Positions 5,771 through 51,474 of a DNA stretch of 64,000 nt are shown here, one piece after another. The position numbers were made by a program, and so were the translations under genes. The notes under the pieces were generated by a model that saw only the letters and a program-made list of their open reading frames with translations, was not told the DNA's origin and did not search any database. Position 1 is the stretch's first letter. Each line of letters begins with the position of its first letter. Source of the DNA: Rhodobiaceae bacterium. GTDB taxonomy: Bacteria > Pseudomonadota > Alphaproteobacteria > Rhizobiales > NORP267. The DNA is taken from positions 1-64,000 of the forward strand of contig JAGRLG010000054.1 of NCBI GenBank assembly GCA_020441905.1. The letters run 5' to 3'.

Positions 5771-7765
5771 TCAGGCAGCGGCGCTGGCCCGCGCCGCCAC
5801 CAGGGCGACAATATCGGCCATGATATTGGTGATCTGGAAATCCTTGGGCGTATAGACCGCCGCGACACCGGCCTTTTTCAGCAAGGCTTCGTCCTCGGCC
5901 GGAATGATGCCGCCGATCACCACCGGCACGTCGTCCAGCCCTTCGGCGCGCATACGGTCCATGACCTCGAGCACCAGCGGCTTGTGGCTGCCCGACAGGA
6001 TCGACAGGCCGACGACATGCACGCCCTCTTCCAGCGCCGCGTTGACGATCTGCGCCGGGGTCAGGCGGATACCCTCATAAACCACTTCCATGCCGCAATC
6101 GCGCGCCCTGACCGCGATCTGTTCGGCGCCGTTGGAATGGCCGTCCAGCCCCGGCTTGCCGACCAGGAACTTGAGCCGCCGCCCCAGCTTGGCCGACAGC
6201 GCATCGACCGACTGGCGCACCGCGTCGAGATCCGCGGCGGAGATATTGCGCGCCGAAGCCGAGACCCCGGTCGGGGCACGGTACTCGCCGAAGGTTGCGC
6301 GCAGCACCTCGCCCCACTCGCCCGTCGTCACCCCGGCCTTGGCGCAGGCGATCGATGGCTCCATGACGTTGCGGCCCTCGCTCGCCGCCGATTTCAGATC
6401 GGCCAGCGCGGCGTCCACCGCCTTTCTGTCGCGCCCCGCGCGCCACGCCTTGATGCGCTCCACCGCGTCGCGCTCGACATGTTCGGGAATGGTCAGGATC
6501 GAGCCGTCGCCGGTCGACAACGGCGAAGGCTCGCTCTCGGTGAAGGCATTGACGCCGATCACCATCTGCTCGCCGCTTTCGATGCCGGCGAGGCGCGCCG
6601 CATTGGCTTCCACCAGCTGGCGCTTCATGTAACTGGTTTCGACGGCTGCCACCGCGCCGCCCATTTCGCCGATGCGCGCCAGTTCGTCGCGCGCGCGGCC
6701 CTTCAGGTCCTCGACCTTGGCGGCGATTTCCGCCGAGCCGTCGAACAGGTCGCCAAATTCCAGCAGGTCGGTTTCATAGGCCAGGATCTGCTGCATGCGC
6801 AGCGACCATTGCTGGTCCCAGGGGCGCGGCAGCCCCAGCGCCTCGTTCCAGGCCGGCAGCTGCACCGCGCGCGCCCGTGCGTTCTTCGACAATACAACAG
6901 CCAGCGTCTCGATCAGGATGCGATAGACATTGTTTTCCGGCTGCTGCTCGGTCAGGCCCAGCGAATTGACCTGCACGCCATAGCGGAAGCGGCGGTATTT
7001 CTCTTCCCTCACGCCATAGCGCGTCGCCGTGATCTCGTCCCACAAATCGACGAAGGCGCGCATCTTGCACATCTCGGTGACGAATTTCAGGCCCGCATTG
7101 ACGAAGAAGGAAATGCGCCCGACGACCTGCGGGAAATCCGCCTCCGGCACCTCGCCCGACGCCTTCACCGCGTCGAGCACCGCGGTCGCGGCGGCCAGCG
7201 CGAAAGACAGCTCCTGGGCCGGCGTCGCCCCCGCTTCCTGCAAATGGTAGGAGCAGACATTGATCGGGTTCCAGCGCGGCAGGTTCTTGTAGGTATAGAC
7301 GATGACGTCCTTGGTCAGCCGCAGGGACGGCTCGGGCGGGAACACATAGGTTCCGCGCGAAAGATACTCCTTGATAATGTCGTTCTGCGTCGTGCCGTTG
7401 AGCAGCTTGCGGTCGGCGCCCTGCTCATCGGCCGCCGCGATATAGAGCGACAGCAGCCACGCCGTGGTGGCATTGATGGTCATCGAGGTGTTCATCTTCT
7501 CCAGCGGAATGCCGTCGAACAGTGCCCTCATGTCGCCAAGATGGGAGATCGGCACGCCGACCTTGCCGACCTCGCCCTTGGCCAGCGCATGGTCAGGGTC
7601 GTAGCCGGTCTGGGTCGGCAGGTCGAAGGCCACCGACAGGCCGGTCTGGCCCTTGGCGAGGTTGGAACGGTAGAGCCGGTTCGATTCCGCCGGGGTCGAA
7701 TGTCCCGCATAGGTACGGAAAATCCAGGGCTTGTCCCTGTGGCTCGCTGTTTCGGATTCACTCAT
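5771..7765 (-). CDS. ecm: Ethylmalonyl-CoA mutase
   Basis: The 664-residue protein is an AdoCbl-dependent acyl-CoA mutase that converts (2R)-ethylmalonyl-CoA to (2S)-methylsuccinyl-CoA in the ethylmalonyl-CoA pathway. The N-terminal barrel shows FRTYAGHSTPAESNRLYR and LSVAFDLPTQTGYD. The whole protein resembles the Rhodobacter Ecm that I remember more than canonical methylmalonyl-CoA mutase. The C-terminal cobalamin domain carries GLDGHSNG, the DxHxxG motif, with the cobalt-ligand His543. It is one chain with no separate small subunit. The start at the ATG encoding MSESET is preferred over an upstream in-frame codon at 7780. It lies about 2.2 kb from ccr and 7 kb from mcd. Confidence 0.93.
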   Translation of the reverse strand: MSESETASHRDKPWIFRTYAGHSTPAESNRLYRSNLAKGQTGLSVAFDLPTQTGYDPDHALAKGEVGKVGVPISHLGDMRALFDGIPLEKMNTSMTINATTAWLLSLYIAAADEQGADRKLLNGTTQNDIIKEYLSRGTYVFPPEPSLRLTKDVIVYTYKNLPRWNPINVCSYHLQEAGATPAQELSFALAAATAVLDAVKASGEVPEADFPQVVGRISFFVNAGLKFVTEMCKMRAFVDLWDEITATRYGVREEKYRRFRYGVQVNSLGLTEQQPENNVYRILIETLAVVLSKNARARAVQLPAWNEALGLPRPWDQQWSLRMQQILAYETDLLEFGDLFDGSAEIAAKVEDLKGRARDELARIGEMGGAVAAVETSYMKRQLVEANAARLAGIESGEQMVIGVNAFTESEPSPLSTGDGSILTIPEHVERDAVERIKAWRAGRDRKAVDAALADLKSAASEGRNVMEPSIACAKAGVTTGEWGEVLRATFGEYRAPTGVSASARNISAADLDAVRQSVDALSAKLGRRLKFLVGKPGLDGHSNGAEQIAVRARDCGMEVVYEGIRLTPAQIVNAALEEGVHVVGLSILSGSHKPLVLEVMDRMRAEGLDDVPVVIGGIIPAEDEALLKKAGVAAVYTPKDFQITNIMADIVALVAARASAAA

Positions 7766-7869
7766 GATGCACTGCCCCAATTCGCTTTTCCCGCATCTCG
7801 CCCATGCCGGCGCGATAGAGCAGCGTGTCTGCGTCCGAACGGCGCAGGCTGCTCTAACATTTTAAGACC

Positions 7870-7918
7870 GATCAACTTTTCCGCTTTCAGGTGATTCCAC
7901 CTGAAAGCTAAGTTGATC
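7870..7918. repeat. Long two-part hairpin, REP-like element
   Basis: A nested inverted repeat of 49 bp. The outer arms GATCAACTT / AAGTTGATC (9 bp) enclose the inner arms GCTTTCAGGTG / CACCTGAAAGC (11 bp) around a 4-base loop. It lies between the ends of the nitrilase gene and the ecm start. Its lower GC content and near-perfect symmetry suggest a dispersed palindromic repeat of the kind found between alphaproteobacterial genes. A terminator for the nitrilase gene is the alternative, but no T-run follows it on that strand. Confidence 0.6.
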
Positions 7919-7946
7919 TAGCCGGCGCATGCTCCCTATCACGTTC

Positions 7947-7965
7947 CATTTTGCGATGCAAAATG
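7947..7965. promoter_or_regulatory. Perfect palindrome upstream of ecm (candidate PhaR site)
   Basis: CATTTTGC-GAT-GCAAAATG has 8-bp perfect arms around a TGC-N3-GCA core. It lies about 182 bp upstream of the ecm start, in the gap after the nitrilase gene. The same core recurs before ccr, hbd, mcd and phaR. PhaR binding is inferred from motif form and gene functions. Confidence 0.5.
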
Positions 7966-8006
7966 AAGGGACGCGATTGGCTTCCAGGGCATATGAGATC
8001 GCGGTT

Positions 8007-8948
8007 CTAGCCCCTGAACCGGGCAGTCGGCATGGGTTCTCGGTTGACCTCCAATTGGAAGATGTCGGGGCGCGAATAATGCCCTGCGATGTCGAGCGAG
8101 CGGCGCGCCCGGCGCGCATCCTCTATATCTATCTCGCCAAACAGGATGGATTTTTCCCTGCTCAGTGGTCCGGCGGCGGGACCGGCAAAGGGCTTGACGA
8201 TCACGGCATCCCCGGGATTGATCCACTCCTGCTCATCGGGGAACATTTGCTCGCGGCCGGGGAAATCCGCCGGAATGTCATTTGCCTGTAGCGCGGTCGC
8301 CGTGCTCACCACCCAGCAACCGCCCTCCGCAGCGATATGGCGCATGCTCGCCAGCCAGCGTTCTCCCGTATCCCAGGTCGGGGCGAGCAGGATATCCATG
8401 TTCTGGGCATAAAGCGCGTAGCGCGCCAGCGGCATGTAGTTTTCCCAGCAGATCAGCATGCCGACGCGCCCGACCGGCGTATCGACCACCCTCAGCCCGC
8501 TGGCATCGCCCCGGCCCCAGACCATGCGCTCCGGATTGGTCGGCAGCAGTTTGCGGTGGCGGTTGAGGATGGCACCATCGGGCCCGATGAGGACCACGGT
8601 ATTGAACAAGGTGGTGCCGGAAAACTCGGCATCGATTTCGTGCATTCCGCAACAAACGGTAATGCCGTGGCTGGCCGCCGCCTCGCGGACCGGCACCAGG
8701 TCGCCGCCCGATATATCGACGGCATTCTTGCGCAGGCGGGCATGGATTTCGCCCGAAAGGCCCATGTCGCCGCCCGGCCTCAACCGCCAAATCCAGGTCG
8801 GATATCCCGGCAGATAGGCTTCCGGGAACAGCACCAATTGCGCCCCCGCCTCGGCGGCTTCGCCGACGCCCTGAACGACACGATCCCGCGATTCCTGCAA
8901 ATCCAGGAATTTTGGCGGCCGTTGAAAAACGGCGACCTTGCTTGCCAT
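8007..8948 (-). CDS. Nitrilase / carbon-nitrogen hydrolase
   Basis: The 313-residue protein is a member of the nitrilase superfamily. The catalytic triad is visible: Glu in LVLFPEAYLPGYP, Lys in NRHRKLLPT, and Cys in GMLICWENYMPLARYALY. The CWENYMPLAR form is that of true nitrilases, which hydrolyse R-CN to acid and ammonia, rather than of amidases. The substrate cannot be read from sequence. The ATG at 8948 has a strong GGGAGGG ribosome site 6-10 bases before it. It is on the ecm strand, with about 240 bp between them holding a hairpin and a candidate regulatory palindrome. Confidence 0.9.
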   Translation of the reverse strand: MASKVAVFQRPPKFLDLQESRDRVVQGVGEAAEAGAQLVLFPEAYLPGYPTWIWRLRPGGDMGLSGEIHARLRKNAVDISGGDLVPVREAAASHGITVCCGMHEIDAEFSGTTLFNTVVLIGPDGAILNRHRKLLPTNPERMVWGRGDASGLRVVDTPVGRVGMLICWENYMPLARYALYAQNMDILLAPTWDTGERWLASMRHIAAEGGCWVVSTATALQANDIPADFPGREQMFPDEQEWINPGDAVIVKPFAGPAAGPLSREKSILFGEIDIEDARRARRSLDIAGHYSRPDIFQLEVNREPMPTARFRG

Positions 8949-9084
8949 GATAACGCCCTCCCGTTTCACGGGGCAGCTTTGTTGTCTGGTCAATCTTCGC
9001 CGGCTGCCTGACCTCACCCTAGATCAAATCCAACTTCAACATAACCCGGTGCACGGCTACGGCGCGAACCCGCCGGGTCTGCAT

Positions 9085-9118
9085 CTATCCTTCTTCATCG
9101 GCTATCCTTCTTCATCGG
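9085..9118. repeat. 17-bp perfect tandem duplication across a stop codon
   Basis: The unit CTATCCTTCTTCATCGG occurs twice head to tail. On the minus strand the second copy contains the last codons and the stop of the 9102-9647 gene; the first copy lies immediately after the stop. Confidence 0.85.
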
Positions 9119-9647
9119 CAAGGTGCGCCGGCAGGTTGGCACGCAAGGCCAGAACAATCTGGCGCCGCGACGCATCGAGCCCGGTCAGCGACAGCGACAG
9201 CAGCGGCATGCGCAGCAAGGTATTGACGCGGACAACGAAGGCGGCAAGACGCCCCGGCGGATCTATAAAGGCGTGCGGATCGTCGGGAATGACGGCCAGA
9301 TAGAGCTGGGAGCGGGCACGGAAAAGGTGAATCTGGCGAATGCGCTCCCAGGGGATCGTCGCCGGGCCGATGCGCCGGTCGCAGATACCCTCAGGCCCGA
9401 TACTCAACACCGGACCGGACCATTTCAGCCGCTCGGCGACAATAAGCAGCCCAAATAGAAAGACCAGCGAGGTCGCGACCAGCAACAGGGCGAGCGCCGG
9501 GCCGGCCTCGCCCTTGGCGATCGCCGCCAGCGGCACCGCCGCCAGGCCCGCCAGCAGCAGAGCCGACACCATGGCCGCGAACCGGCCATAGCCGAAATGG
9601 CGCGTGCCCCTTTCGCCAGCCCCGGTATCTGCCGAAGATTCAGTCAT
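9102..9647 (-). CDS. Two-segment membrane protein of unknown function
   Basis: This is a 181-residue protein. After a polar N-terminus (about 22 residues) there are two hydrophobic segments, roughly residues 24-45 and 50-68, then a cytoplasmic domain of about 110 residues. The latter contains SIGPEGICDRRIGPATIPWERIRQIHL. That pattern (a G.E.I.DRR...I.W..I) is seen in small membrane proteins whose soluble half resembles a PH-like fold, often named STM3941-like; I am not certain of that family. Function unknown. It is divergent from ccr. Its 3' end carries a 17-bp duplication spanning the stop codon. Confidence 0.65.
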   Translation of the reverse strand: MTESSADTGAGERGTRHFGYGRFAAMVSALLLAGLAAVPLAAIAKGEAGPALALLLVATSLVFLFGLLIVAERLKWSGPVLSIGPEGICDRRIGPATIPWERIRQIHLFRARSQLYLAVIPDDPHAFIDPPGRLAAFVVRVNTLLRMPLLSLSLTGLDASRRQIVLALRANLPAHLADEEG

Positions 9648-9758
9648 TTGCCAGCCCCTATTTCTTGCTGCGATGCCATATAGCCTGTCCTGTCAGTTGG
9701 AGGTCAGATCGTGATTGGCCCCCTATTTGGGCCGAAAAGCCACACTTCCCATCTATTT

Positions 9759-9771
9759 TGCTGCATTGCAA
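9759..9771. promoter_or_regulatory. Candidate PhaR box upstream of ccr
   Basis: TGCTGCATTGCAA is repeated exactly upstream of hbd at 24333-24345. On the minus strand it reads TGCAATGCAGCA, which fits the PhaR consensus I recall from Bradyrhizobium (TGC-RNY-GCA-SMA). It is 160 bp before the ccr start and flanked by A/T runs unusual for this genome. Confidence 0.6.
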
Positions 9772-9931
9772 AAAACCCTTGCGCCATCCGCTTGGCCAAT
9801 CATACGATGCGCCCTCGATACGCGTGCCCCGCGGAATCGGCTCACAGGCCGGATGTTCCGAGGGCGAATTGGGGATGTGCCGGTCGGTCAAGATGACAAA
9901 CGGCACCAAGATTGGCGATGGAGTTTCATCA

Positions 9932-11224
9932 ATGAACACAGGCGAAGCCTTGGCGACCCCCGTCAAGTACGATGCACCTGTAAAGGATCTTTACGAGATT
10001 GGCGAGATTCCGCCGCTCGGTCATGTTCCCGCGAACATGTACGCCTGGTGCATCAGGCAGGACCGGCACGGCCCGCCGGAAGACGCGATGCAGCTCGAGG
10101 TGGTTCCCACCTGGCAGATCGACAGCCACGAGGTGCTGATCTACGTAATGGCCGCCGGCGTCAATTATAACGGCGTCTGGGCCGCCCTCGGCACTCCTGT
10201 TTCAACGCTCGACGGCCATGACAGCCCGCACCATATCGCCGGATCGGACGCCTCCGGCATCGTCTGGGCGGTCGGTTCCAAGGTCACGCGCTGGAAGGTC
10301 GGCGACGAGGTCATCGTCCACTGCAACCAGGACGATGGCGACGACGAGGAATGCAATGGCGGCGACCCGATGTTCTCGCCGTCCCAGCGCATCTGGGGCT
10401 ATGAGACGCCCGACGGCTCCTTCGGCCAGTTCTGCCGTGTCCAGGCCCAGCAGCTCATGCCGCGCCCCCAGCACCTGACCTGGGAAGAATCGGCCTGCTA
10501 CACCCTGACCCTCGCCACCGCCTACCGCATGCTGTTCGGCCACAGCCCGCACCGCCTGCGCCCCGGCGACAACGTGCTGGTCTGGGGTGCCTCGGGCGGC
10601 CTCGGCTCAATGGCGATCCAGCTTTGCGCCGCCGCCGGCGCCAATGCCATTGGCATCATCTCCGACGATGACAAGCGCGATTTCGTCATGCAGCTCGGCG
10701 CCCGCGGCGTGCTGAACCGCAAGGATTTCAATTGCTGGGGCCAGATGCCCCAGGTCAACAGCCCCGAATACAATGCCTGGGTCAAGGAAGCGCGCAAGTT
10801 CGGCAAGGCGATCTGGGAAATCACCGGCAAGGGCAACGACGTCGATCTGGTGTTCGAGCATCCCGGCGAGGCCACCTTTCCGGTGTCCTGCCTGGTGGTC
10901 AAGCGCGGCGGCATGGTCGTCTTCTGCGCCGGCACCTCGGGCTACAATCTGACCTTTGACGCGCGCTATGTATGGATGCGCCAGAAGCGCATCCAGGGGT
11001 CGCATTTCGCCCATCTCAAGCAGGCCAGCGAGGCCAACAAGTTCGTTATCGAACGGCGCCTCGACCCCTGCATGTCGGAGGTTTTCCCCTGGGCTCAGAT
11101 CCCCAAGGCCCATACCAAGATGTGGAAAAACCAGCACCTTCCGGGAAACATGGCGGTTCTGGTCAATGCGCCGGTGGCCGGCCTGCGCACATTCGAAGAC
11201 GCGCTGGAAGCCTCGGGCAGCTAG
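9932..11224 (+). CDS. ccr: Crotonyl-CoA carboxylase/reductase
   Basis: The 430-residue enzyme catalyses NADPH-dependent reductive carboxylation of crotonyl-CoA to ethylmalonyl-CoA, the signature step of the EMC pathway. It is a medium-chain dehydrogenase/reductase: AGVNYNGVWA and HIAGSDASGIVW in the N-terminal catalytic domain, and GASGGLGSMAIQL in the nucleotide-binding domain from about residue 218. Family-specific blocks include HCNQDDGDDEECNGGDPM and FEHPGEATFPVS. The ATG at 9932 gives the usual family length and has GGAG 8 bases upstream; the open frame extends to 9665 but those codons do not resemble the family. A strong terminator follows. A candidate PhaR site lies upstream. Confidence 0.96.
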   Translation: MNTGEALATPVKYDAPVKDLYEIGEIPPLGHVPANMYAWCIRQDRHGPPEDAMQLEVVPTWQIDSHEVLIYVMAAGVNYNGVWAALGTPVSTLDGHDSPHHIAGSDASGIVWAVGSKVTRWKVGDEVIVHCNQDDGDDEECNGGDPMFSPSQRIWGYETPDGSFGQFCRVQAQQLMPRPQHLTWEESACYTLTLATAYRMLFGHSPHRLRPGDNVLVWGASGGLGSMAIQLCAAAGANAIGIISDDDKRDFVMQLGARGVLNRKDFNCWGQMPQVNSPEYNAWVKEARKFGKAIWEITGKGNDVDLVFEHPGEATFPVSCLVVKRGGMVVFCAGTSGYNLTFDARYVWMRQKRIQGSHFAHLKQASEANKFVIERRLDPCMSEVFPWAQIPKAHTKMWKNQHLPGNMAVLVNAPVAGLRTFEDALEASGS

Positions 11225-11268
11225 GCCGTCTGGCCGGTCCTGGCAGCTACCGAACCGATACGACCAAA

Positions 11269-11298
11269 ACGGGCGGGGATTTCCCCCGCCCGTTTTTT
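11269..11298. terminator. Bidirectional rho-independent terminator after ccr
   Basis: Stem ACGGGCGGGG / CCCCGCCCGT with a short ATTTC loop is followed by six T. An A-run precedes it, so it can also serve the converging chemoreceptor gene. Confidence 0.9.
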
Positions 11299-11324
11299 AG
11301 TGCCCCATCAAAACATATTTGCCG

Positions 11325-13442
11325 TCAGGCGACGCGAACCTCGTTGAGGAACTCATCGACATTGGCGCGCAGCTGTTCGGCCTGACCGGCTAGCGCCCCG
11401 GCCAGCGATTTGACGGTTTCAGCCGTCTCGCCGGTCACGTCGGCAGCCGAATTGACCTCGCCCATATTGTCGACCCCGGAGCGCGAACCCTGGGCGGCGC
11501 GCGAAACATTCTCGTTGATATTGCCGATGACCGCGTTCTGCTCTTCGACCGCGCTCGCCACCAGGGCGGCGATGCGCGACATTTCCTCGATGGTTTCATC
11601 GACGGTATTGATGGCTCCGGCAGCATCTGTCGCCGTCGACTGGATTTCCTTGATCTGGTGGGAAATTTCCTCGGTTGCCTTGGCAGTCTGGGTTGCCAGC
11701 GCCTTGACCTCGCTCGCCACCACGGCAAAGCCGCGCCCGGCTTCGCCGGCCCGTGCCGCCTCGATGGTGGCGTTGAGCGCCAGGAGGTTGGTCTGCTCGG
11801 CAATATCCTGGATCAGGTTGACGACCTCGCCGATGCGCTGCGCCGCCTCCGAAAGGCCGTCCATGGTATCGCTGGTCTTGCGCGCCTCGTGAACCGCGCG
11901 GTCGGCGACCTGGGTCGAGCGCGCCGCTTCGGAGGCGATCTGGTTGATCGACACCGCCAGTTCCTGCGCCGCATTCGATACCATCTCGACTTCCGTGCAC
12001 GCCGAACTGACCGCATTGCTCGCCACCGAAGCGCATTCGGTAACCTGCTGGGCATTGGCCGACAGGGCGCTGGAAACGTCTTCCATCTCTTTCACGGCGC
12101 CGCCGACACCACCCAGGGTCTGGCGCACGCCGGCCTCGAAATTGCGGATCGATGCTTCGATACGCTCCGAGCGCTGGAGTTGCGCGTCCCGCTGCCTGGC
12201 CTGATCGGCGGCGAGCCGGCTGCGTTCGATCGCATTGTCCTTGAACACATTGAGAGCGCGCGCCATTTCGCCGAGCTCGTTCTTGACCTCGGCGCCAGGC
12301 ACAAAGACCGATGTGTCGCCCTCGGCCAGGCCGCGCATGGCCAAAGTCAGCCGGTTGACCGGCAAGGTGATCGAGCGCCCGATCAGATAGCACAGGATCA
12401 GGACGACAAAGGCGGTGGCGCCCATGCCGATATACATATGCCGTTCGATCGTCGCCCGCGCCTCGAGCAGGTCCTCGGACCGCTGATTGCGGTTGCGCTC
12501 GGCCACCGAGGTGATGGCATCGATCAGATATGGCAGCTTGGTGAAAACGGACTGAAGATCCTTGAGGTTCTTGGCGACGGCCTGATGCTCGCCGACATAA
12601 GCGTCGAACTTGGCCACATAGGCGCCGAATGCCTCCTCTACGGCGGCACGCTCCGTGGCGCTGATCGCCGCAGCGGCGATGAGCCTGGCGGCTTCCTCGC
12701 GCTGGTCCTTATAGGCATCGAGCGAACTTTGCTCGCCAAAGCGCAGATAGTCTTTTTCATGCAGGCGCATCTGGCCGAAATGAACGAGGAATTCGTCCAT
12801 ATCCGGATCGCCAAATTGCGGCTTGGCCGCCTTGGCAGCGGCGTGAACCGCCTGCGCCGCAACATGGATTTCGCCCGCCAGCCCCTCATTGAGGCCCAGC
12901 CCGAGGCGTGCCTGACCGGCCACCACATCCTTGAATATCTGGTCGTTTTCCTTGATCCGGTCCAAGCCTTCCTTGGCCTGCCCGGACAGCTCGCCGACAG
13001 CATCGGAGCTGGCGATCAACTCCAGCGACAATTTGGCGACCTGGGAGAAGCTGTCACGGTCATAGGTGAAATCGACATCCCGCTGCAGCAGGAAGTCTTT
13101 CTCGTAGCGGCTCATCTGCAGCGTGTTGATGGTGACATCGCGGGCAAAGCCCAGCACTTCGCCGAATTGCTGGGCTTCCTTGAAGGCGGCATCGACGCGC
13201 ACGCGTCCGTAGAAGAAATTGGCGGCGATCGACGACAGCCCGATGATGGCGATCACGGCCAGCAGCGCCACGCGCGCCCGGATCGACAGCCGGCCGATGC
13301 CGGATACGATACGCGATCCGCCGCCGCGCGCTTTCTTGGCGTGCGAATTTTCGCCTGACTGCGATTTCTGACGGTTGCTGCCCCTAAACGTCACTTTTGC
13401 CAGCAAGCCCCCAAGCTTGCCGGTTCCGCCCAGAATTGCCAT
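11325..13442 (-). CDS. Methyl-accepting chemotaxis protein with large helical sensor
   Basis: The 705-residue receptor has a basic cytoplasmic N-terminus of about 50 residues, a membrane segment ([19 protein letters not shown]), and a helical periplasmic domain of about 260 residues. A second membrane segment ([15 protein letters not shown]), a HAMP domain and a long coiled-coil signalling domain follow. The hairpin tip [22 protein letters not shown] is the universal MCP signature. The periplasmic length and all-helical character fit a helical bimodular sensor (HBM type), which in known members binds organic acids; the ligand here is unknown. The ATG at 13442 has GAGGG very close; a TTG at 13451 is the alternative. 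No che genes are nearby. Confidence 0.92.
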
Positions 13443-13591
13443 ATCCCTCAATCCGTTTTTCTTATTTGAAAAATGACTTAAATAAATTCCCGTCCCACGC
13501 CATTAGTGGCCGGGATCAGTAAAGTTTTGATTAAAGCGAAGGCAGGGCGCTGCAGGCGATCGGTCCGGGTTCCTCGCCGGCGCAACGAACG

Positions 13592-14497
13592 CTAGCGCGG
13601 CCGCCTGCCGGCAGCGGTAGCGGACCGGCATTGCGGTCCGTGCGGAGACAGCCGCCGCAGCCGGAAAAGCGCGGCGTTCAATTCGCCGCCGAGAATGAAC
13701 ACGGCGGCGACAAGATAGAGAAACACCAGCGCCGCCATGACCCCGGCAAGGCCGGCATAGGTCGACACATATCCTGCGAAGCTTTCCAGATAGCGCGCGA
13801 ACAGCTCGGCGCCGAGCAGCCAGAATGCCAGGGTGAAGACGATCCCCGGCCAGATATCGCCAACGCCGCGCTGTCCGTCCGGCAGCCACAAATGGGCGAT
13901 GGTCAGTCCGGTGGCCATGATGGCAACGGCAAGCAGCCAGCGCCATCCTTCCGCCACGTGCATCGCCGGCACCAGCCATGGCGCGAAATTCTCTCCCGCC
14001 ATGCGCACCACCGGAGCCAGAACCAGCAGCAGGGCCAGCGCCAGCAGCACCAGCGCGCCGATAACGATGAAGGCAAGGCTTTGCGCCCGCAGCCGCCACA
14101 TCGGCCGGCTTTCGCGCCGCCGATAGGCGCGGTTGAGCGCCACCCGCATCGCCTCCACGCCATTGCTGGCCAGAAACAGCAGCACCAATAGGCCGAAGGT
14201 GGCGACGCCGCCGCGCGGCTGCGTCAGCACGATATGGACCTGGTTGGCGATGGGCGCCGCGACCTCCGCCGGCCAAACCTGGAAAAGGATATCCGCGGCC
14301 TCGTCGGCAAGCTGCTGCGAGCCGAACAGTCCGGCCAGCGCGGTGACCACGATGAGAAACGGAAACAGCGCCATCAGGATCGACAGCGCGACATGGCTGG
14401 CGATCGCCCAGCCGTCATCGGCATTGAAATGCCCGGCGGCATCCGCGCCGACCCAGCGCGCCGCGCGCCACAGCCTCGATATCCGCCTCCGCGTCAT
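13592..14497 (-). CDS. YihY/BrkB family membrane protein
   Basis: The 301-residue protein has about six hydrophobic segments and the family blocks ASHVALSILMALFPFLIVV, FLASNGVEAMRVALNRAYRRRESR and WPGIVFTLAFWLLGAELFARYL. This family was once annotated as ribonuclease BN, which is wrong for these proteins. They are inner-membrane proteins of unresolved transport function. The C-terminal tail is short and basic. The gene is divergent from mcd, with about 118 bp between the two starts. Confidence 0.9.
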   Translation of the reverse strand: MTRRRISRLWRAARWVGADAAGHFNADDGWAIASHVALSILMALFPFLIVVTALAGLFGSQQLADEAADILFQVWPAEVAAPIANQVHIVLTQPRGGVATFGLLVLLFLASNGVEAMRVALNRAYRRRESRPMWRLRAQSLAFIVIGALVLLALALLLVLAPVVRMAGENFAPWLVPAMHVAEGWRWLLAVAIMATGLTIAHLWLPDGQRGVGDIWPGIVFTLAFWLLGAELFARYLESFAGYVSTYAGLAGVMAALVFLYLVAAVFILGGELNAALFRLRRLSPHGPQCRSATAAGRRPR

Positions 14498-14513
14498 CTT
14501 GCTGGACTACCAC

Positions 14514-14527
14514 AAAAACCGGTTTTT
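14514..14527. repeat. 14-bp perfect palindrome upstream of mcd
   Basis: AAAAACC-GGTTTTT is a perfect palindrome in the mcd/yihY divergent gap. It overlaps a second inverted repeat (TTTTGA at 14524-14529, TCAAAA at 14540-14545). Promoter element, operator or degraded REP are all possible. Confidence 0.45.
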
Positions 14528-14559
14528 GACCGCTTGCGATCAAAAGCGTTTTCCGCCAC

Positions 14560-14572
14560 TGTGCGCCGCACA
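14560..14572. promoter_or_regulatory. Candidate PhaR box upstream of mcd
   Basis: TGTGC-GCC-GCACA is a palindrome with the TGC-N3-GCA core. TGCGCCGCACAA fits TGC-RNY-GCA-SMA at every position. It lies 44 bp before the mcd ATG, where it could overlap the promoter. Confidence 0.5.
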
Positions 14573-14615
14573 ATCGACGAAGATGACCCGAAAAGGGTTG
14601 GACCAGGAGGCAAAT

Positions 14616-16295
14616 ATGAGCCTGGCTGAGAACAATACGGCCACCCCGGAAACCCTGATATCCGCCGCCCATGACGCGGTCGGCGTGCTCGACCAGTTGC
14701 TCGGCGAAGCGCGCATGGCGGTTGACAGGATGGTGCGCGTCGACGGGCGTATCGATGCCGTCAGGCTTGAGCGCCAGCAGCATGCCGCCCATGGCCTGGC
14801 CTGGCTTGCAACTTATGTCGAAGCCCTGCGCCAGATGGCGTCCTATGGCGAACGCCAGCAGTCGGCGGGTCGCTTCGGCGAGATCGAGCAGCTCATTTTC
14901 CAGATCGCCTTTGGCGAATATCTCAGCCAGGTCGCCGGCGGCATCCCCATGAATCAGGGCGAGTTCATCCGCCTGTCCGACCTCGGCCTGCCGCGCTCGC
15001 GCGCCGCGACGCTGATCGCCCAGCCCTCGGTTGCGACACTGATCGACGGCAATTCCCCGGCTGCCCGCGCCCGCCTCATGGAACTGCTGACCCCGCTGGA
15101 AGGCGCGTCCTCATATGGCGATATCGGCCTCGACGAAACCCTGGAGGCCTTCCGCGAGGAAATGCGCCGCTTCGCCGGCGACAATGTCGTACCCCATGCC
15201 CATGAATGGCACCTGGCCAACGAATATATCCCCCTCGAAGTCATCGGCCAGATGGCGGAACTTGGCGTCTTCGGCCTCACCATTCCGGAAGAATATGGCG
15301 GGCTCGGACTTGGCAAGGAGAGCATGTGCGTCGTGTCCGAGGAGCTGTCGCGCGCCTATATCGGCGTTGGCTCGCTGGGCACCCGTTCCGAGATTGCCGC
15401 CGAGCTGATTCTGGCCGGCGGCACCCGGGAACAGAAGGAAAAGTGGCTCCCGCTCATCGCCTCCGGCGAGATCCTGCCCACCGCGGTCTTCACCGAGCCC
15501 AATACCGGCTCGGACCTTGCCAGCCTCAAGACCCGCGCCGTGCGTGAGGGCGATGTCTACAAGATCACCGGCAACAAGACCTGGATCACCCATCCGGTTC
15601 GCGCCGATGTCATGACCCTGCTGGCCCGCACCAACCCTGACGACAAGGGCTATCGCGGCCTGTCCATGTTCCTGGCCGAAAAGCCGCGCGGCAGCGACGA
15701 AGATCCCTTCCCGGCGCCGGGCATGACCGGCGGCGAGATCGAGGTCATCGGCTATCGCGGCATGAAGGAATACGAGATCGGTTTCGACGGTTTCGAGGTC
15801 AAGGCCGAGAACCTGCTCGGGCTCGAGGAGGGCCAGGGCTTCAAGCAGCTCATGCAGACGTTTGAATCGGCCAGAATCCAGACCGCCGCCCGCGCCGTCG
15901 GCGTTGCCCAGTCGGCCATGGACCTGGCGTTGCGCTACGCCACCGAGCGGGTGCAGTTCGGCAAGCAGATCGTCGCCTTCCCGCGCGTCGCCGACAAAAT
16001 CGCCCTCATGGCGACCGAGGTCATGATCGCGCGCCAGATCACTTACTTTGCCGCCCGCGAGAAGGACGAGGGCCGGCGCTGCGACCTGGAGGCCGGCATG
16101 GCCAAGCTGCTGGCGGCGCGCATCGCCTGGGCCGCCGCCGACAATGCGGTGCAGATCCATGGCGGCAACGGTTTTGCCGAGGAATACCCGGTCAGCCGCG
16201 TGCTGTGCGACGCCCGCATTCTCAATATTTTCGAGGGCGCGGCCGAAATCCAGGCCCAGGTCATCGCCCGCCGCATCCTCGAAGGCGCCAACTAG
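14616..16295 (+). CDS. mcd: (2S)-Methylsuccinyl-CoA dehydrogenase
   Basis: The 559-residue protein is an FAD-dependent acyl-CoA dehydrogenase with an N-terminal extension of about 165 residues not found in ordinary family members. That architecture is typical of Mcd, which oxidises (2S)-methylsuccinyl-CoA to mesaconyl-CoA in the EMC pathway. The catalytic part begins around residue 170 with LDETLEAFREEMRRFA and includes FGLTIPEEYGGLGLGKE, TEPNTGSDLASLKTR, and QIHGGNGFAEEYPVSR. Glu540 in NIFEGAAEIQ is the expected catalytic base. The ATG at 14616 has a perfect AGGAGG 5 bases before it; the open frame continues upstream to 14133 only because of shadow coding. Electrons would go to EtfAB (22.6-24.3 kb). 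Confidence 0.93.
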   Translation: MSLAENNTATPETLISAAHDAVGVLDQLLGEARMAVDRMVRVDGRIDAVRLERQQHAAHGLAWLATYVEALRQMASYGERQQSAGRFGEIEQLIFQIAFGEYLSQVAGGIPMNQGEFIRLSDLGLPRSRAATLIAQPSVATLIDGNSPAARARLMELLTPLEGASSYGDIGLDETLEAFREEMRRFAGDNVVPHAHEWHLANEYIPLEVIGQMAELGVFGLTIPEEYGGLGLGKESMCVVSEELSRAYIGVGSLGTRSEIAAELILAGGTREQKEKWLPLIASGEILPTAVFTEPNTGSDLASLKTRAVREGDVYKITGNKTWITHPVRADVMTLLARTNPDDKGYRGLSMFLAEKPRGSDEDPFPAPGMTGGEIEVIGYRGMKEYEIGFDGFEVKAENLLGLEEGQGFKQLMQTFESARIQTAARAVGVAQSAMDLALRYATERVQFGKQIVAFPRVADKIALMATEVMIARQITYFAAREKDEGRRCDLEAGMAKLLAARIAWAAADNAVQIHGGNGFAEEYPVSRVLCDARILNIFEGAAEIQAQVIARRILEGAN

Positions 16296-16312
16296 ACCGC
16301 CAGGTCCGCCGC

Positions 16313-16795
16313 TCAGGCAGGCAGGAACTTCAACGCCACGCCATTGATGCAGTGGCGCTTGCCGGTGGGCGGCGGCCCGTCATCGAAGACATGGCCGAGA
16401 TGCCCGCCGCAGCGCGCGCAATGGACCTCGATGCGTTTCATGAACAAGGAGTGATCGGGCCGGGTGCCCACCGCGCCCGAACTTAGGGCGCGCGTAAAGC
16501 TCGGCCAGCCGGTGCCGCTGTCATATTTGTCGCCCGAGGCATAGAGCGGCAATTCGCAACCGGCGCAGGCAAATATCCCGTCGCGCTTTTCATGCAGCAA
16601 GGGGCTCGATCCGGGCCGCTCGGTCGCCTCCTGGCGCAGCACGGCATAGGCTTGCGGGCTGAGAATCTTGCGCCACTCGGCATCGCTGCGGGTGATCTCG
16701 AAAGTCCCGCCCAGCGCCCCACCTCCGGCCAGCGCCAAGGCGCCGCCGGCGCAGGAGGCCAGGAGCATGTCTCGTCGTGTCATCATCATCGTCAT
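16313..16795 (-). CDS. msrB: Peptide-methionine (R)-S-oxide reductase with Tat-like signal
   Basis: The 160-residue protein reduces methionine-R-sulfoxide. The MsrB fold shows two CxxC zinc pairs (CAGC and CARC), the block DSGTGWPSF, and the catalytic cysteine in RHCINGVALKF. The N-terminus MTRRDMLLASCAGGALALAGG is a basic-hydrophobic leader with an RR pair, suggesting export, possibly by Tat or as a lipoprotein at the Cys. This enzyme would repair envelope proteins. Several ATGs cluster at the start (16795, 16789, 16786, 16783) so the exact start is uncertain. An 8-copy decamer repeat sits where its promoter should be. Confidence 0.93.
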   Translation of the reverse strand: MTMMMTRRDMLLASCAGGALALAGGGALGGTFEITRSDAEWRKILSPQAYAVLRQEATERPGSSPLLHEKRDGIFACAGCELPLYASGDKYDSGTGWPSFTRALSSGAVGTRPDHSLFMKRIEVHCARCGGHLGHVFDDGPPPTGKRHCINGVALKFLPA

Positions 16796-17127
16796 CCCCG
16801 TTCTGGCCCGTTCTGGCCCGTTCTGGCCCGATCTGGTCCGATCTGGCCCGATCTGGCCCGATCCCGCCCGATGCGGCTTGATCTGGTGGCCTTTCGCCGC
16901 GCCAGGCGCTCGGCGCGGCGCAGCTGGCGGCTGCTCCGTGACAGTATGGCGTAAAATGCAGGCGGATCGATTTCACACCTATTCACATTTTTGGCAGGCG
17001 AAGGCGTCTGATAGCCGCAATGGCACCGCGGGACTGCCGATGGCTGCGCCGCCCTTGGCCATTGCCCATTCGCCCAAGGTGAACTAGGAAAAGGCTTGGG
17101 GGGCGCCTTTTCGGGGGGAAAGCGCAA
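16796..17127. other. Intergenic region msrB / membrane protein
   Basis: This 332-bp divergent gap holds the decamer repeat array near the msrB start. The remainder has mixed composition, with an AT-richer patch near 16970-16995 (ATTTCACACCTATTCACA) that could hold the promoter of the 17128 gene. No RNA gene or further ORF with family resemblance was seen. Confidence 0.6.
16801..16880. repeat. 10-bp tandem repeat, about 8 copies, before msrB
   Basis: Decamer units run TTCTGGCCCG three times, then ATCTGGTCCG, ATCTGGCCCG twice and two decayed copies. The array begins 5 bp upstream of the first msrB start codon, so it lies in the msrB leader or promoter. The 10-bp period equals one helical turn. 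Confidence 0.9.
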
Positions 17128-18114
17128 ATGTGGGATTTCGATACCGGCCTCTCGCTCGCCGCCCTGCGGCGAACGATGCCATTCATTTTGTTGCGCATGG
17201 CCGTCTATTTCGGCATCACCGTGGCATATGTCGCCGCCACCGGCCTTGGCGCCGGCATCGGCTGGACCTTTGGCGTTTTCGGCAGCGACGACTTCCAGGC
17301 CACGACGACATTCTGGGGCGGCGCCTTCGGCATCGGCGGCGTATCGCTCGCGCTCTACTGGCTGCGCGAATATATCCTCTACATGGTCAAGGCGGCCCAT
17401 ATCGCGGTCCTGGTCGGTGTGCTCGACGGCACCGAACCGCCGGCCGGACGAGGCCAGCTGGAACATGGCGCCGCCATCGTCAAGGACCGCTTTGCCGAGG
17501 CCAATGTGCTCTTCGTCCTCGACCGCGCCATCAAGGCGGTGGTGCGCATGGTGTCCGGACTGATCGGGTTTGTCTCCGATTTCCTGCCCATACCCGGCAT
17601 CCAGGCGCTGGCCCGCTTTGCCGACGCGGTGCTGCGCGTCGCCGTCACCTATGTCGACGAGATCATCCTCGCCTACAATATCCGCGTGCGCTCGGACAAT
17701 CCCTGGGACACCTCCAAGGACGCCCTCATCCTCTATGCCCAGAACAGCGGCCTCATCCTCAAGAACGCGGTCTGGCTGGCGGTCTTCATGTATCTCGCCG
17801 CCTTCATCATCTTTCTGGTGATGATCGCGCCGGCCGCCGCCCTGCTCTATGTGCTGCCCGGCGACTGGTCGTCCTTCGGCTTCGTCCTGGCGCTGGTTTT
17901 CGCCTGGTCGCTCAAGCAGGCGATCCTCGAACCCTTCGCCATCACCTGCCTGATGCAGGTTTACTTCAAGGCCATCGAAGGCCAGCAGCCCGATCCGGTA
18001 TGGGACGAACGCCTGTCCGCGGCGTCCGGAAGGTTTCGTGAAATGAAGGAACGCGCTATCGACTGGGCACGCGGGCGCTCCAGCGCCTATAGTCTGTCTC
18101 GCAACAACAGCTAG
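17128..18114 (+). CDS. Polytopic membrane protein of unknown function
   Basis: The 328-residue protein is not one I recognise. It has about five or six hydrophobic segments: roughly residues 20-45, 65-90, 130-150, 210-240 and 245-275. A conspicuous SDFLPIPGIQALARFADAVLRVAVTYVDE block lies in the middle, and a polar, charged tail of about 45 residues ends the chain. No signal peptide, transporter signature or catalytic motif is obvious. It is followed 47 bp later by a host-attachment-like gene on the same strand, so the two may be co-transcribed. Confidence 0.7.
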   Translation: MWDFDTGLSLAALRRTMPFILLRMAVYFGITVAYVAATGLGAGIGWTFGVFGSDDFQATTTFWGGAFGIGGVSLALYWLREYILYMVKAAHIAVLVGVLDGTEPPAGRGQLEHGAAIVKDRFAEANVLFVLDRAIKAVVRMVSGLIGFVSDFLPIPGIQALARFADAVLRVAVTYVDEIILAYNIRVRSDNPWDTSKDALILYAQNSGLILKNAVWLAVFMYLAAFIIFLVMIAPAAALLYVLPGDWSSFGFVLALVFAWSLKQAILEPFAITCLMQVYFKAIEGQQPDPVWDERLSAASGRFREMKERAIDWARGRSSAYSLSRNNS

Positions 18115-18161
18115 GTCCGCCGGCGCGCGCAATCCGCCGGCGCGTTCAAGGAGCCGGTTCG

Positions 18162-18599
18162 ATGAAAAACGGAACCTGGGTGGTTGTCGCCGACGGCAGA
18201 AAGGTCCTCTACCTGCACAATCACGGCGACAACGATTTTATCGACCTGCGCGTGCTCGACCACCGGGAACAGGTAAATCCGCCAACCCGCGACCAGGGCA
18301 CCGACCAGCCGGGGCGCGCCTATGACGGCACCGGGCCGGGACGCAGCGCCATGGAGGCGGCCGACTGGCACCAGATCGCCGAGGACCGCTTTGCCCGCCA
18401 GGTCGCCGCCGATATCGAGGCCGCCCGCGCCGCCGGGCGCTTCCGCCATCTGGTTCTGGTGGCTCCGCCAAAGGCCCTGGCCGAAATCCGCGCCCACCTG
18501 CGCAAGGAAACCATCCGCGACCATGTCGTCGCCGAGATCAACAAGGACCTCACCAATCACCCGCTGGACAAGCTTGAAAAGCTTCTGGCCAGGCTCTAG
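18162..18599 (+). CDS. Host attachment family protein
   Basis: The 145-residue protein matches the family named after an Agrobacterium gene said to be required for attachment to host cells. Visible family features are TWVVVADGRKVLYL at the start, a disordered Gly/Asp/Arg-rich middle (GRAYDGTGPGRSAMEAADWHQ), and FARQVAADIEAARAAG...HLVLVAPPKALAEIRAHL...VVAEINKDLTNHP at the end. It resembles the eRF1/Dom34-like domain used by ribosome-hibernation and rescue proteins, so the host role should not be taken literally. The next gene starts at its stop codon. Confidence 0.88.
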   Translation: MKNGTWVVVADGRKVLYLHNHGDNDFIDLRVLDHREQVNPPTRDQGTDQPGRAYDGTGPGRSAMEAADWHQIAEDRFARQVAADIEAARAAGRFRHLVLVAPPKALAEIRAHLRKETIRDHVVAEINKDLTNHPLDKLEKLLARL

Positions 18600-19439
18600 G
18601 TGCGCCTGCCCGTGACGGCGCGATCCATCCTCATCACCGGCGCGTCCTCGGGCATCGGCGCCCATTGCGCCCATGGGCTGGCGGCGCGCGGCTGGCGGGT
18701 CCTGGCCACCGCACGCACGCACGCCGACCTCGAGACGCTGAAAGGCGCCGGCATCGAGGCCCTCTATCTCGACTACGCCGAGCCGGCTTCGATTGCCGCT
18801 CTCGCCGGCAAGGTATTGCAAGACACCGGCGGCGCCCTCTACGCCCTGTTCAACAATGGCGCCTATGCCCAGCCCGGCGCCGTGGAGGATCTTTCCAGCG
18901 CCGCCCTGCACGCCCAGTTCGAGGCCAATTTCTTCGGCTGGCACGACCTCACCTGCCGCCTGATACCGGCCATGCGGGTGCGAGGCGAGGGCCGCATCGT
19001 CTTCTGCTCGTCAGTGCTCGGCCTCGTCGCCCTGCCCTATCGCGGCGCCTATAACGCCAGCAAATTCGCCGTCGAAGGCCTGGCAGATACGATGCGGCTG
19101 GAACTGGCGGGCAGCGGCATTCACGTTTCCACCATCCAGCCCGGCCCCATCCGCTCGCGCTTCAACGAACATGCCCTTGCCGCCTTCGAGGCCAATATCG
19201 ACTGGCGGAATTCGGTCCATCGCGATGCCTACGAGATACGGCTGGAGCAATTGCGCGGCGGGCGCGTGTCGCGCCTCAGGCTGGGGCCCGAAGCGGTGTT
19301 CGCAAAGCTGCTCCATGCTCTGGAAAGCCCGCGCCCGCGGCCCCATTACCATGTCACCGGCGCCACGACCTTCGCCGCGCTGTGCCGCCGCCTGCTGCCG
19401 CGGCGCGCCCTCGACGCCCTGGCGCGGCGCATCTTCTGA
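18600..19439 (+). CDS. Short-chain dehydrogenase/reductase
   Basis: The 279-residue protein is a classical SDR. ILITGASSGIGAHCAHGLAARG is the NAD(P) binding loop, NNGAYAQPGAVED the NNAG-type motif, and YRGAYNASKFAVEGLADTMRLEL carries the catalytic Tyr and Lys, with Ser in FCSSVLGLV. The long C-terminal region (FEANIDWRNSVHRDAYEIRLEQLRGG) is typical of retinol/17-beta-hydroxysteroid-dehydrogenase-like SDRs. The substrate is unknown. The GTG start at 18600 abuts the preceding stop; a GTG at 18612 is an alternative. Confidence 0.88.
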   Translation: MRLPVTARSILITGASSGIGAHCAHGLAARGWRVLATARTHADLETLKGAGIEALYLDYAEPASIAALAGKVLQDTGGALYALFNNGAYAQPGAVEDLSSAALHAQFEANFFGWHDLTCRLIPAMRVRGEGRIVFCSSVLGLVALPYRGAYNASKFAVEGLADTMRLELAGSGIHVSTIQPGPIRSRFNEHALAAFEANIDWRNSVHRDAYEIRLEQLRGGRVSRLRLGPEAVFAKLLHALESPRPRPHYHVTGATTFAALCRRLLPRRALDALARRIF

Positions 19440-24307: not shown

Positions 24308-24332
24308 TAGCAATAGCCACCAGAAACATTTA

Positions 24333-24345
24333 TGCTGCATTGCAA
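24333..24345. promoter_or_regulatory. Candidate PhaR box upstream of hbd
   Basis: TGCTGCATTGCAA is an exact copy of the 13-mer upstream of ccr. It also sits inside a wider ATGCTG (24332-24337) / CAGCAT (24348-24353) inverted repeat. It lies 65 bp before the hbd ATG, so hbd probably has its own promoter besides read-through from etfBA. Confidence 0.6.
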
Positions 24346-24410
24346 CACAGCATGAATATGGGCGCGGCACACATGGCCCGGACCCCATCCAGACCGGAGA
24401 CAACAAGAAT

Positions 24411-25292
24411 ATGGCGCTAGAAATAAAGAAGGTGGGTGTCATCGGTGCCGGGCAAATGGGCAGCGGCATTGCCCATGTCTGCGCGCTGGCCGGCTTCCCG
24501 GTAGCATTGGCCGACATCGCCGAGGACCGCATCAAGTCCGGCATGGCAGTCATCGACGGCAATATGGGACGCCAGGTCGGCTCGGGGAAGATCACCAACG
24601 ACGAGCGCAAGAAGGCGCTGTCCATCATTACCCCGGCAACCTCGCTGGACAAGCTGGGCGACTGCGATCTGGTCATCGAATCGGCGGTCGAGGACGAGAA
24701 GGTCAAGCGCGCCATCTTTACCGAGCTGTGCCCGCATCTGCGCGCCGACGCCCTGGTCGCCAGCAACACCTCGTCGATCTCCATCACCCGACTGGCCTCG
24801 ATCAGCGACCGGCCTGAAAAGTTCATCGGCATCCACTTCATGAATCCGGTCCCGGTCATGGAACTGGTGGAGCTGATTCGCGGCATCGCCACCGATGACG
24901 AGACTTTCGACACCGCCCGCACCTTCGTGGCCAAGCTGGGCAAGATCGTCGCCGTTTCGGAAGATTTCCCCGCCTTCATGGTCAACCGCATCCTGCTGCC
25001 GATGATCAACGAGGCGGTCTACACGCTCTATGAGGGCGTCGGCACGGTGGAAGCCATCGACACCGCCATGCGGCTCGGCGCCCACCATCCGATGGGGCCG
25101 CTGCAACTGGCCGATTTCATCGGGCTGGACACCTGCCTGTCGATCATGCAGGTGCTCTATGAGGGCCTCGCCGACTCCAAGTACCGGCCCTGCCCGCTGC
25201 TGGTGAAATATGTCGAGGCCGGCTGGCTGGGGCGCAAGACCCAGCGCGGCTTTTACGATTATCGCGGCGAAGATCCGGTGCCGACGCGCTGA
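24411..25292 (+). CDS. hbd: 3-Hydroxybutyryl-CoA dehydrogenase
   Basis: The 293-residue enzyme interconverts acetoacetyl-CoA and (S)-3-hydroxybutyryl-CoA. The Rossmann motif GVIGAGQMGSGIAHVCALAG opens the protein. SNTSSISITRLA and IGIHFMNPVPVMELVELI contain the substrate-contacting Ser and catalytic His; HHPMGPLQLADFIGLDT and GRKTQRGFYDY complete the family pattern. This length is that of the short-chain, stand-alone form. It can feed crotonyl-CoA toward Ccr or act in butyrate and PHB turnover. The ATG at 24411 is preferred over the frame opening at 24243, which overlaps etfA. Confidence 0.95.
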   Translation: MALEIKKVGVIGAGQMGSGIAHVCALAGFPVALADIAEDRIKSGMAVIDGNMGRQVGSGKITNDERKKALSIITPATSLDKLGDCDLVIESAVEDEKVKRAIFTELCPHLRADALVASNTSSISITRLASISDRPEKFIGIHFMNPVPVMELVELIRGIATDDETFDTARTFVAKLGKIVAVSEDFPAFMVNRILLPMINEAVYTLYEGVGTVEAIDTAMRLGAHHPMGPLQLADFIGLDTCLSIMQVLYEGLADSKYRPCPLLVKYVEAGWLGRKTQRGFYDYRGEDPVPTR

Positions 25293-50425: not shown

Positions 50426-50880
50426 AGAGATATCTCTCCCTGCTGGCAGCCATCTGAAAAGGCAAGGCGGCAAGAACGTTCAATGCAGCCCGTCCCGCCC
50501 TTGATACCGGGCATCGGCGCCGCACTGCCATGGTTTGCCCGGCGCCAAACACGCTGGACGCCGGCCCTGGCCGCGCCGCTAGTGAACCCGCCCGGCCGTT
50601 CTCGGCCTTAACGCGGGTGACGCCTATAAATGAGCGCGACGGCGCCCCCTGTCAATCCGCTCGCGATTGGCAAATGGTCCCGTTTCGGCCCAAAATCGGG
50701 CGCCGCGGCGCCGGTTCCCCCCGGTCTTTCCGCCCTCATGGCCGCAATGCAGCGACGGCTTCGCTGCCATGCACAAAAAAGTGGCACGCGGCACGGCAAT
50801 TTCGTATCTTGGTTTCGGGGGCTGCCAATATCTGCGCCCGACACCGGTCGCCACACCGGCCAAGGACAAGGAAATTCCAA
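50426..50880. other. phaA/phaR divergent promoter region
   Basis: The 455-bp gap separates phaA from phaR. It carries candidate PhaR half-consensus sites close to both genes: TTCAATGCAGCC at 50479-50490 near phaA, CGCAATGCAGCG at 50743-50754 and TGCCATGCACAA at 50765-50776 near phaR. No ORF here looks like a real gene. Confidence 0.55.
50743..50776. promoter_or_regulatory. Tandem candidate PhaR sites upstream of phaR
   Basis: Two near matches to TGC-RNY-GCA-SMA (CGCAATGCAGCG and TGCCATGCACAA) lie 22 bp apart, about two helical turns, 105-138 bp before phaR. PhaR proteins are known to repress their own genes, so autoregulation is likely. Confidence 0.5.
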
Positions 50881-51474
50881 GTGCAGGACAAGAAAGAGGA
50901 GAGAAAGCCGGTCGTCATAAAGAAATATGCCAACCGTCGTCTCTACAACACCGATTCCAGCACCTATGTGACGCTCGAGGACCTTGCCGAAATGGTCAAG
51001 GCCGACCGCGATTTTCTCGTCCACGACGCCAAGACCGGCGAGGACATTACACGCACCGTCCTGACCCAGATCATCTTCGAGCAGGAGAACCGGGGGCAGA
51101 ACCTGCTTCCCATTCCCTTCTTGCGCCAGTTGATCCGTTTCTACGACGACAGCCTGCAGAAGCTGGTGCCGAGTTATCTCGAGTTCAGCCTCGATTCCCT
51201 GGCCAAGGAGCATGAGAAGTTCCAGAGCCAGATTGTCGGCGCCCTGAGCGGCAATCCGTTCGACATCGTCCAGGAACAGGTGCAGCGCAATCTTTCGCTG
51301 TTTGAAAACGCGCTCGCCGCCTTCGCGCCGTTCACCGGTGAGACAGGCTCTGCCCCGAAACAGGGCAAACCGGCGCGCGAAGCCAGCCCGCAGGATGGCG
51401 CGGACGACCTCAAGGCGCTCAAGGACCAGCTCGCCTCAATGCAATCGCGGCTCGACGAACTGGCGCGAAAATAG
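50881..51474 (+). CDS. phaR: Polyhydroxyalkanoate synthesis regulator PhaR
   Basis: The 197-residue protein has the PHB/PHA accumulation regulator DNA-binding domain at the start: VVIKKYANRRLYNTDSSTYVTLEDLAEMVK, followed by FLVHDAKTGEDITRTVLTQIIFEQE and LLPIPFLRQLIRFYDDSLQKLVPSYLE. The C-terminal third is a coiled-coil-prone tail (DDLKALKDQLASMQSRLDELA). PhaR binds both PHB granules and DNA; when granules are scarce it represses phasin and other genes. The start is GTG at 50881, preceded by AAGGA. Confidence 0.94.
   Translation: MQDKKEERKPVVIKKYANRRLYNTDSSTYVTLEDLAEMVKADRDFLVHDAKTGEDITRTVLTQIIFEQENRGQNLLPIPFLRQLIRFYDDSLQKLVPSYLEFSLDSLAKEHEKFQSQIVGALSGNPFDIVQEQVQRNLSLFENALAAFAPFTGETGSAPKQGKPAREASPQDGADDLKALKDQLASMQSRLDELARK

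Follow-up and report, generated by a model that had tools for sequence, protein, structure and literature searches.

Why should one and the same 13-mer precede both ccr, for crotonyl-CoA carboxylase/reductase, and hbd, for 3-hydroxybutyryl-CoA dehydrogenase? In the window—the whole stretch of 64,000 nucleotides analyzed here, from a Rhodobiaceae bacterium—TGCTGCATTGCAA lies at 9759-9771 and at 24333-24345, exactly where an initial annotation had placed it, with no third copy. A pattern search of the genome as a whole (2,809,919 bases, or 2.81 Mb, in 86 contigs) likewise found two copies in total, and 0 matches to the reversed control pattern. The annotation proposed that the regulator PhaR coordinates the two genes, and the confinement of the 13-mer to their promoters speaks in favor of a PhaR box. 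The 13-mer is very probably a docking site for PhaR, which senses the storage plastic PHB. Both the box and the regulator are already known. To our knowledge, the trigger of the ethylmalonyl-CoA (EMC) pathway in most Alphaproteobacteria is not settled.

The repetition itself carries little weight. The initial annotation held an exact recurrence to be very unlikely by chance, an argument that fails: the window contains 1,204 distinct 13-mers in more than one copy, including 23 that have six G/C or fewer, and a recurring 13-mer spotted by eye is thus little proof. The significance of the motif rests instead on its conservation in other genomes and on the presence of the box on other genes of the same genome.

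Boxes and genes in the window

The 13-mer copies and the genes first linked to them are as follows.

9759..9771, minus strand: candidate PhaR box of the ccr promoter, read as TTGCAATGCAGCA on this strand, with TGCATTGCA as its core (9762-9770)
9932..11224, plus strand: ccr, crotonyl-CoA carboxylase/reductase; TIGR01751 equivalog, 614.9 bits
22613..24307, plus strand: etfB and etfA, electron transfer flavoprotein, upstream of hbd; PF01012, PF00766
24333..24345, minus strand: candidate PhaR box preceding hbd, between etfA and hbd, with its core at 24336-24344; exact consensus match
24411..25292, plus strand: hbd, 3-hydroxybutyryl-CoA dehydrogenase; NF005715 equivalog, 553 bits (cut-off 420)
50743..50776, plus strand: two imperfect box-like elements before phaR, CGCAATGCAGCG (50743-50754) and TGCCATGCACAA (50765-50776)
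50881..51474, plus strand: phaR, gene of the PHB-responsive regulator, taken to start at a GTG; TIGR01848 equivalog at 145.3 bits, against a threshold of 109.45

The ccr-side copy lies 161-173 bp upstream of the ccr ATG (9932) and the hbd-side copy 66-78 bp upstream of the hbd ATG (24411), after etfA; TIGR01751 and NF005715 confirm the identities first given to the two genes. The reverse complement, TGCAATGCAGCA, fits the PhaR consensus TGCRNYGCASMA over its full length. The annotation gave that consensus correctly: in Bradyrhizobium diazoefficiens it was worked out with GLAM2 from DNase I footprints at phaP1, phaP4, and additional promoters (PMC6201568). The regulator gene, too, is genuinely in the window; it is single copy in the genome, and its product carries PF07879 DNA-binding and PF05233 domains, both over cut-off. 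Neither of the two elements before phaR is a full consensus match, and weak autoregulation of phaR through them would be possible. The hbd box sits within a 9-bp inverted repeat (ATGCTG...CAGCAT, 24332-24353) that appeared terminator-like on the minus strand in a scan, and no promoter near this box passes a simple promoter scan. At ccr, the promoter call is weak.

The candidate targets originally named, ccr and hbd, stand; boxes before two further genes, ecm and mcd, had been overlooked.

5771..7765, minus strand: ecm, ethylmalonyl-CoA mutase; PF01642, PF02310, assigned from the MM_CoA_mutase family and the pairing with ccr
7949..7963, no strand: candidate PhaR box, the palindrome TTTTGCGATGCAAAA, lying 184-198 bp upstream of the ATG of ecm (7765)
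14562..14573, plus strand: candidate PhaR box TGCGCCGCACAA, 43-54 bp before the mcd ATG (14616); exact consensus match
14616..16295, plus strand: mcd, probable methylsuccinyl-CoA dehydrogenase; acyl-CoA dehydrogenase domains, function taken from the neighborhood

The ecm product falls below the methylmalonyl-CoA mutase equivalog cut-off, and genes 58-73% identical to mcd occur in most ccr loci compared. The full consensus TGCRNYGCASMA is matched by the ccr, hbd, and mcd boxes; the ecm box has the core TGCRNYGCA, with AAA/AAT where the consensus has SMA. In relatives ecm is divergent from ccr, lying upstream of it on the opposite strand in 92 of the 93 loci with both genes and close by in 71. 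In the window they are separated (7766-9931) by a gene for a carbon-nitrogen hydrolase and by an unknown 181-aa gene, and the ecm and ccr promoters each keep their own box.

Other repeats punctuate the same intervals. A 17-bp unit, CTATCCTTCTTCATCGG, is tandemly duplicated at 9085-9120, between the hydrolase gene and the 181-aa gene. Upstream of ecm, a long nested inverted repeat at 7871-7918 (CTTTCAGGTG-ATTC-CACCTGAAAG inside GATCAACTT...AAGTTGATC) has an inner part that occurs once in the window and in none of the other loci compared. The palindrome AAAAACCGGTTTTT (14510-14531), which overlaps a TTGACC hexamer, lies on the upstream side of the PhaR-like box in the gap that separates mcd from a BrkB-like gene, and could be another operator.

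Conservation of the box across Alphaproteobacteria

Loci carrying ccr were drawn from named genomes, from the window's family, and from the class (Alphaproteobacteria). Of 85 loci, 51 have TGCRNYGCA in the 400 bp upstream of ccr, against 5% of background windows of similar length; other trinucleotides placed in the same frame occur in 0-6 of the 85. With strict orientation and duplicates removed, the box is found in 74 of 112 loci, compared with 13 and 16 for the all-G/C controls GGC and CCG and 0-9 for the remaining trinucleotides. A ranking made de novo, with no prior motif, arrives at the same palindrome. Across 17 gaps and 4,096 trinucleotide pairs, or 69,632 gapped pairs, TGC-N3-GCA ranks first in 152 non-redundant ccr upstream regions from other Alphaproteobacteria, own genome excluded (99 vs an expectation of 20.3 from shuffles), and several of the pairs that follow it in the ranking are fragments of this palindrome. 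TGCRNYGCA itself is present in 92 of these 152 regions (60%), compared with 4.2% of shuffles, which were taken as background because coding windows swamped the de novo ranking with AT-rich pairs. Within the same loci, 25 of 42 ccr intergenic regions have the box, vs 17 of 230 (7%) other promoter-bearing intergenic regions.

Among named loci, the box stands before ccr in species of Stappia, Roseibium, Amorphus, Parvibaculum, and Xanthobacter and in some Methylobacterium; it is lacking before ccr in most Rhodobacteraceae and in Methylorubrum populi, which has no TGC-N3-GCA upstream of this gene. Within the window's family, each of the five genomes with ccr has it. Among ccr genomes with phaR, 56 of 75 have the box, and among those without detected phaR 2 of 8 do, counts that ignore phylogeny and base composition. 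Completeness is 68% and 80% for the two box-bearing genomes in the latter group, and AT-rich ccr upstream regions are found in most genomes that lack phaR; about a quarter of the phaR-bearing ccr genomes are without a strict box. TTGAC hexamers aligned to the boxes gave no usable geometry.

The other genes differ in how widely the box is kept. Upstream of ecm it is found in 90 of 134 regions, and in three family members the gap shared by ecm and ccr holds two or three copies, including one at 35-41 bp from ecm. For mcd the count is 9 of 40 other upstream regions (10 of 41 including our own); nine of the ten boxes lie within 51 bp of the start, and eight of the nine in other genomes lie 14-48 bp before the estimated start. 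Before hbd, just 6 of 32 relatives have the box (7 of 33 counting our own; controls 0-5), and the hbd box is for that reason taken as lineage-specific. Coordination of ccr and hbd by PhaR, as first proposed, is thus supported at the level of sequence, with a class-wide site at ccr and a patchy one at hbd. The occurrence of the same site before key acetate-assimilation genes in most related bacteria checked points to a common switch for storage and for the assimilation of acetate.

The box on PHB genes and in known PhaR systems

The predicted regulon of the organism itself was assembled from pattern matches and the genome stretches around them. Coding and intergenic labels based on the longest ORF proved unreliable (promoters were swallowed, and the ccr box was labeled coding) and were kept out of the statistics. 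The consensus has 50 matches in the genome, against 8 for the reversed control, including sites at two phasin genes, a PHB depolymerase gene, a crotonase gene, ccr, hbd, and mcd, which bears out the initial reading; the related pattern TTGCRNYGCARNA, which also picks up ecm, has 34, against 4. For the phasin gene phaP1 (contig 15), two boxes surround TTGACA, followed by TATATT, and phaP2 (contig 76) also has two. On contig 71, a box lies about 67 bp upstream of the start of the PHB depolymerase gene phaZ (TIGR01849), and another about 60 bp upstream of an enoyl-CoA hydratase/crotonase gene (NF004517). The predicted promoters of phaP1 and phaZ are overlapped or flanked by their boxes. A phasin-gene box is present in six of six family genomes, paired 30-32 bp apart in five; in our own genome, phaP3 and phaC have no strict box.

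Not every consensus match is credible, as some adjoin genes without an obvious link: AT-flanked matches lie by a flagellin gene, a lytic transglycosylase gene, a BenE transporter gene with a divergent oxidoreductase gene, and a phage portal gene. Many genome matches have G/C-only cores and resemble coding sequence. On contig 4, a full consensus match (42032-42043) lies in front of an isocitrate dehydrogenase gene, at a distance of about 107 bp, and of a divergent SpoU-type methylase gene, at 100 bp.

By family assignment, the box appears to mark the PHB cycle together with consecutive steps of the upper EMC pathway, running from acetoacetyl-CoA to 3-hydroxybutyryl-CoA (hbd), crotonyl-CoA (crotonase), ethylmalonyl-CoA (ccr), methylsuccinyl-CoA (ecm), and mesaconyl-CoA (mcd). 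What the computation shows directly is where the sites lie, how they are conserved, that ccr, ecm, mcd, hbd, and PHB genes have them in common, and that phaR is genuine.

Two characterized regulons offer a close comparison. That of B. diazoefficiens has the same operator consensus and includes phasin and PHB depolymerase genes, with central-carbon genes among its targets as in the window's genome (PMC6201568). The accessible parts of that report do not name ccr, ecm, or mcd as PhaR targets, and its main text does not mention crotonyl-CoA or 3-hydroxybutyryl-CoA dehydrogenase. For PhaR (AniA) of Sinorhizobium meliloti, the motif is WNWD2NYGCRNYGCRNH2WNW, likewise a palindrome with AT-rich arms, and phasins and depolymerases are again targets (PMC12542648). 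Paired boxes flank the -35 element at phaP1/phaP2 of S. meliloti (PMC12542648), as they do at phaP1 here. Of the 21 positions of this motif, the phaP1 boxes match 21, ccr and ecm 20, hbd 19, and mcd 18; unrelated cores in the window match 17-20. Ethylmalonyl, crotonyl-CoA, and ccr are not mentioned in the main text of PMC12542648.

A candidate switch between storage and assimilation

We infer from these patterns that PhaR binds the boxes, and we hold with good confidence that it thereby couples the upper EMC pathway to the PHB cycle. PhaR (50881-51474) would bind the TGCRNYGCA boxes before ecm, ccr, mcd, and hbd, and also those before the two phasin genes, the PHB depolymerase gene, and the crotonase gene. 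As PHB granules form, PhaR would move to the granule surface and off the DNA, as shown in other species. For instance, PHB abolishes DNA binding by B. diazoefficiens PhaR in vitro, in agreement with Paracoccus denitrificans (PMC6201568), and sequestration of PhaR at granules induces phasins and depolymerases in S. meliloti (PMC12542648). With PhaR off the DNA, phasins, depolymerase, and the enzymes leading from acetoacetyl-CoA to methylsuccinyl-CoA would be expressed together. Because PHB formation would free the phasin, depolymerase, and EMC genes at once, acetyl-CoA overflow into PHB and assimilation via ccr would rise in step.

PhaR could act on the EMC genes in either direction. Repression at ccr, ecm, mcd, and hbd seems likelier, since at phaP1 and phaZ the boxes lie on or beside the predicted promoter and since few motif-bearing S. 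meliloti genes, seven, are PhaR-activated (PMC12542648). Activation is the less likely mode, though some consensus-bearing genes of B. diazoefficiens fall in the phaR mutant (PMC6201568) and a weak predicted -35 follows directly downstream of the ccr box.

It is also conceivable, if unlikely, that the boxes are real and that another factor recognizing a palindrome like TGC-N3-GCA mainly regulates ccr and ecm, whether TetR-type like CcrR or of the ScfR family like RamB and PccR. CcrR is a reported activator of ccr in Methylobacterium extorquens AM1 (Hu and Lidstrom 2012, cited in PMC4207312), and ScfR regulators act in acetyl-CoA and propionyl-CoA assimilation. Control by RamB of P. denitrificans (PMC10370305) and by CcrR (cited in PMC4207312) is likewise tied to acetyl-CoA assimilation and the EMC pathway. 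They differ in kind from PhaR: RamB, a member of the ScfR family, regulates the glyoxylate cycle and responds to CoA esters of the EMC pathway, CcrR belongs to the TetR type and activates ccr, and neither is described in those papers as PHB-sensing. The class 2 RamB operator consists of two near-identical boxes with an 18-bp spacer (PMC10370305), whereas the ccr and hbd promoters of the window have one TGC-N3-GCA palindrome each, a comparison of layout rather than of RamB box sequence. No regulator gene was identified beside ccr among the window genes scanned (5771-20642), and the ccr upstream region of M. populi, as noted above, is without the palindrome. In favor of PhaR, one genome has the same box on phasins, PHB depolymerase, and ccr, and this box equals the footprinted PhaR consensus (PMC6201568).

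Least probable is that the two copies are a chance repeat, or that the one at hbd belongs to a terminator or RNA hairpin instead of serving as an operator: the abundance of recurring 13-mers, the inverted repeat around the hbd copy, and the lack of a box in most relatives' hbd regions would fit, but the ccr box is conserved class-wide, the genome has no further copy, and the hbd copy is intergenic with a full consensus and a counterpart in six other genomes.

With PhaR as the preferred regulator, the earlier claim should widen to the divergent ecm-ccr pair, mcd, and crotonase. No link between PhaR and ccr, ecm, mcd, hbd, or the EMC pathway appeared in the open papers searched; subscription literature and RegPrecise-type regulon databases lay outside that search, and the link may thus have been predicted elsewhere. 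On balance, though less firmly than for this organism, we favor PhaR as a general regulator of the EMC pathway in Alphaproteobacteria, one that would directly switch ecm-ccr and, in some lineages, mcd, crotonase, and hbd, with the granule as the signal for acetyl-CoA assimilation. If so, the amount of stored polymer, and not a soluble metabolite alone, would gate the assimilation of acetate and C1 carbon, and PhaR would be a control point for producing EMC-derived acids or PHB.
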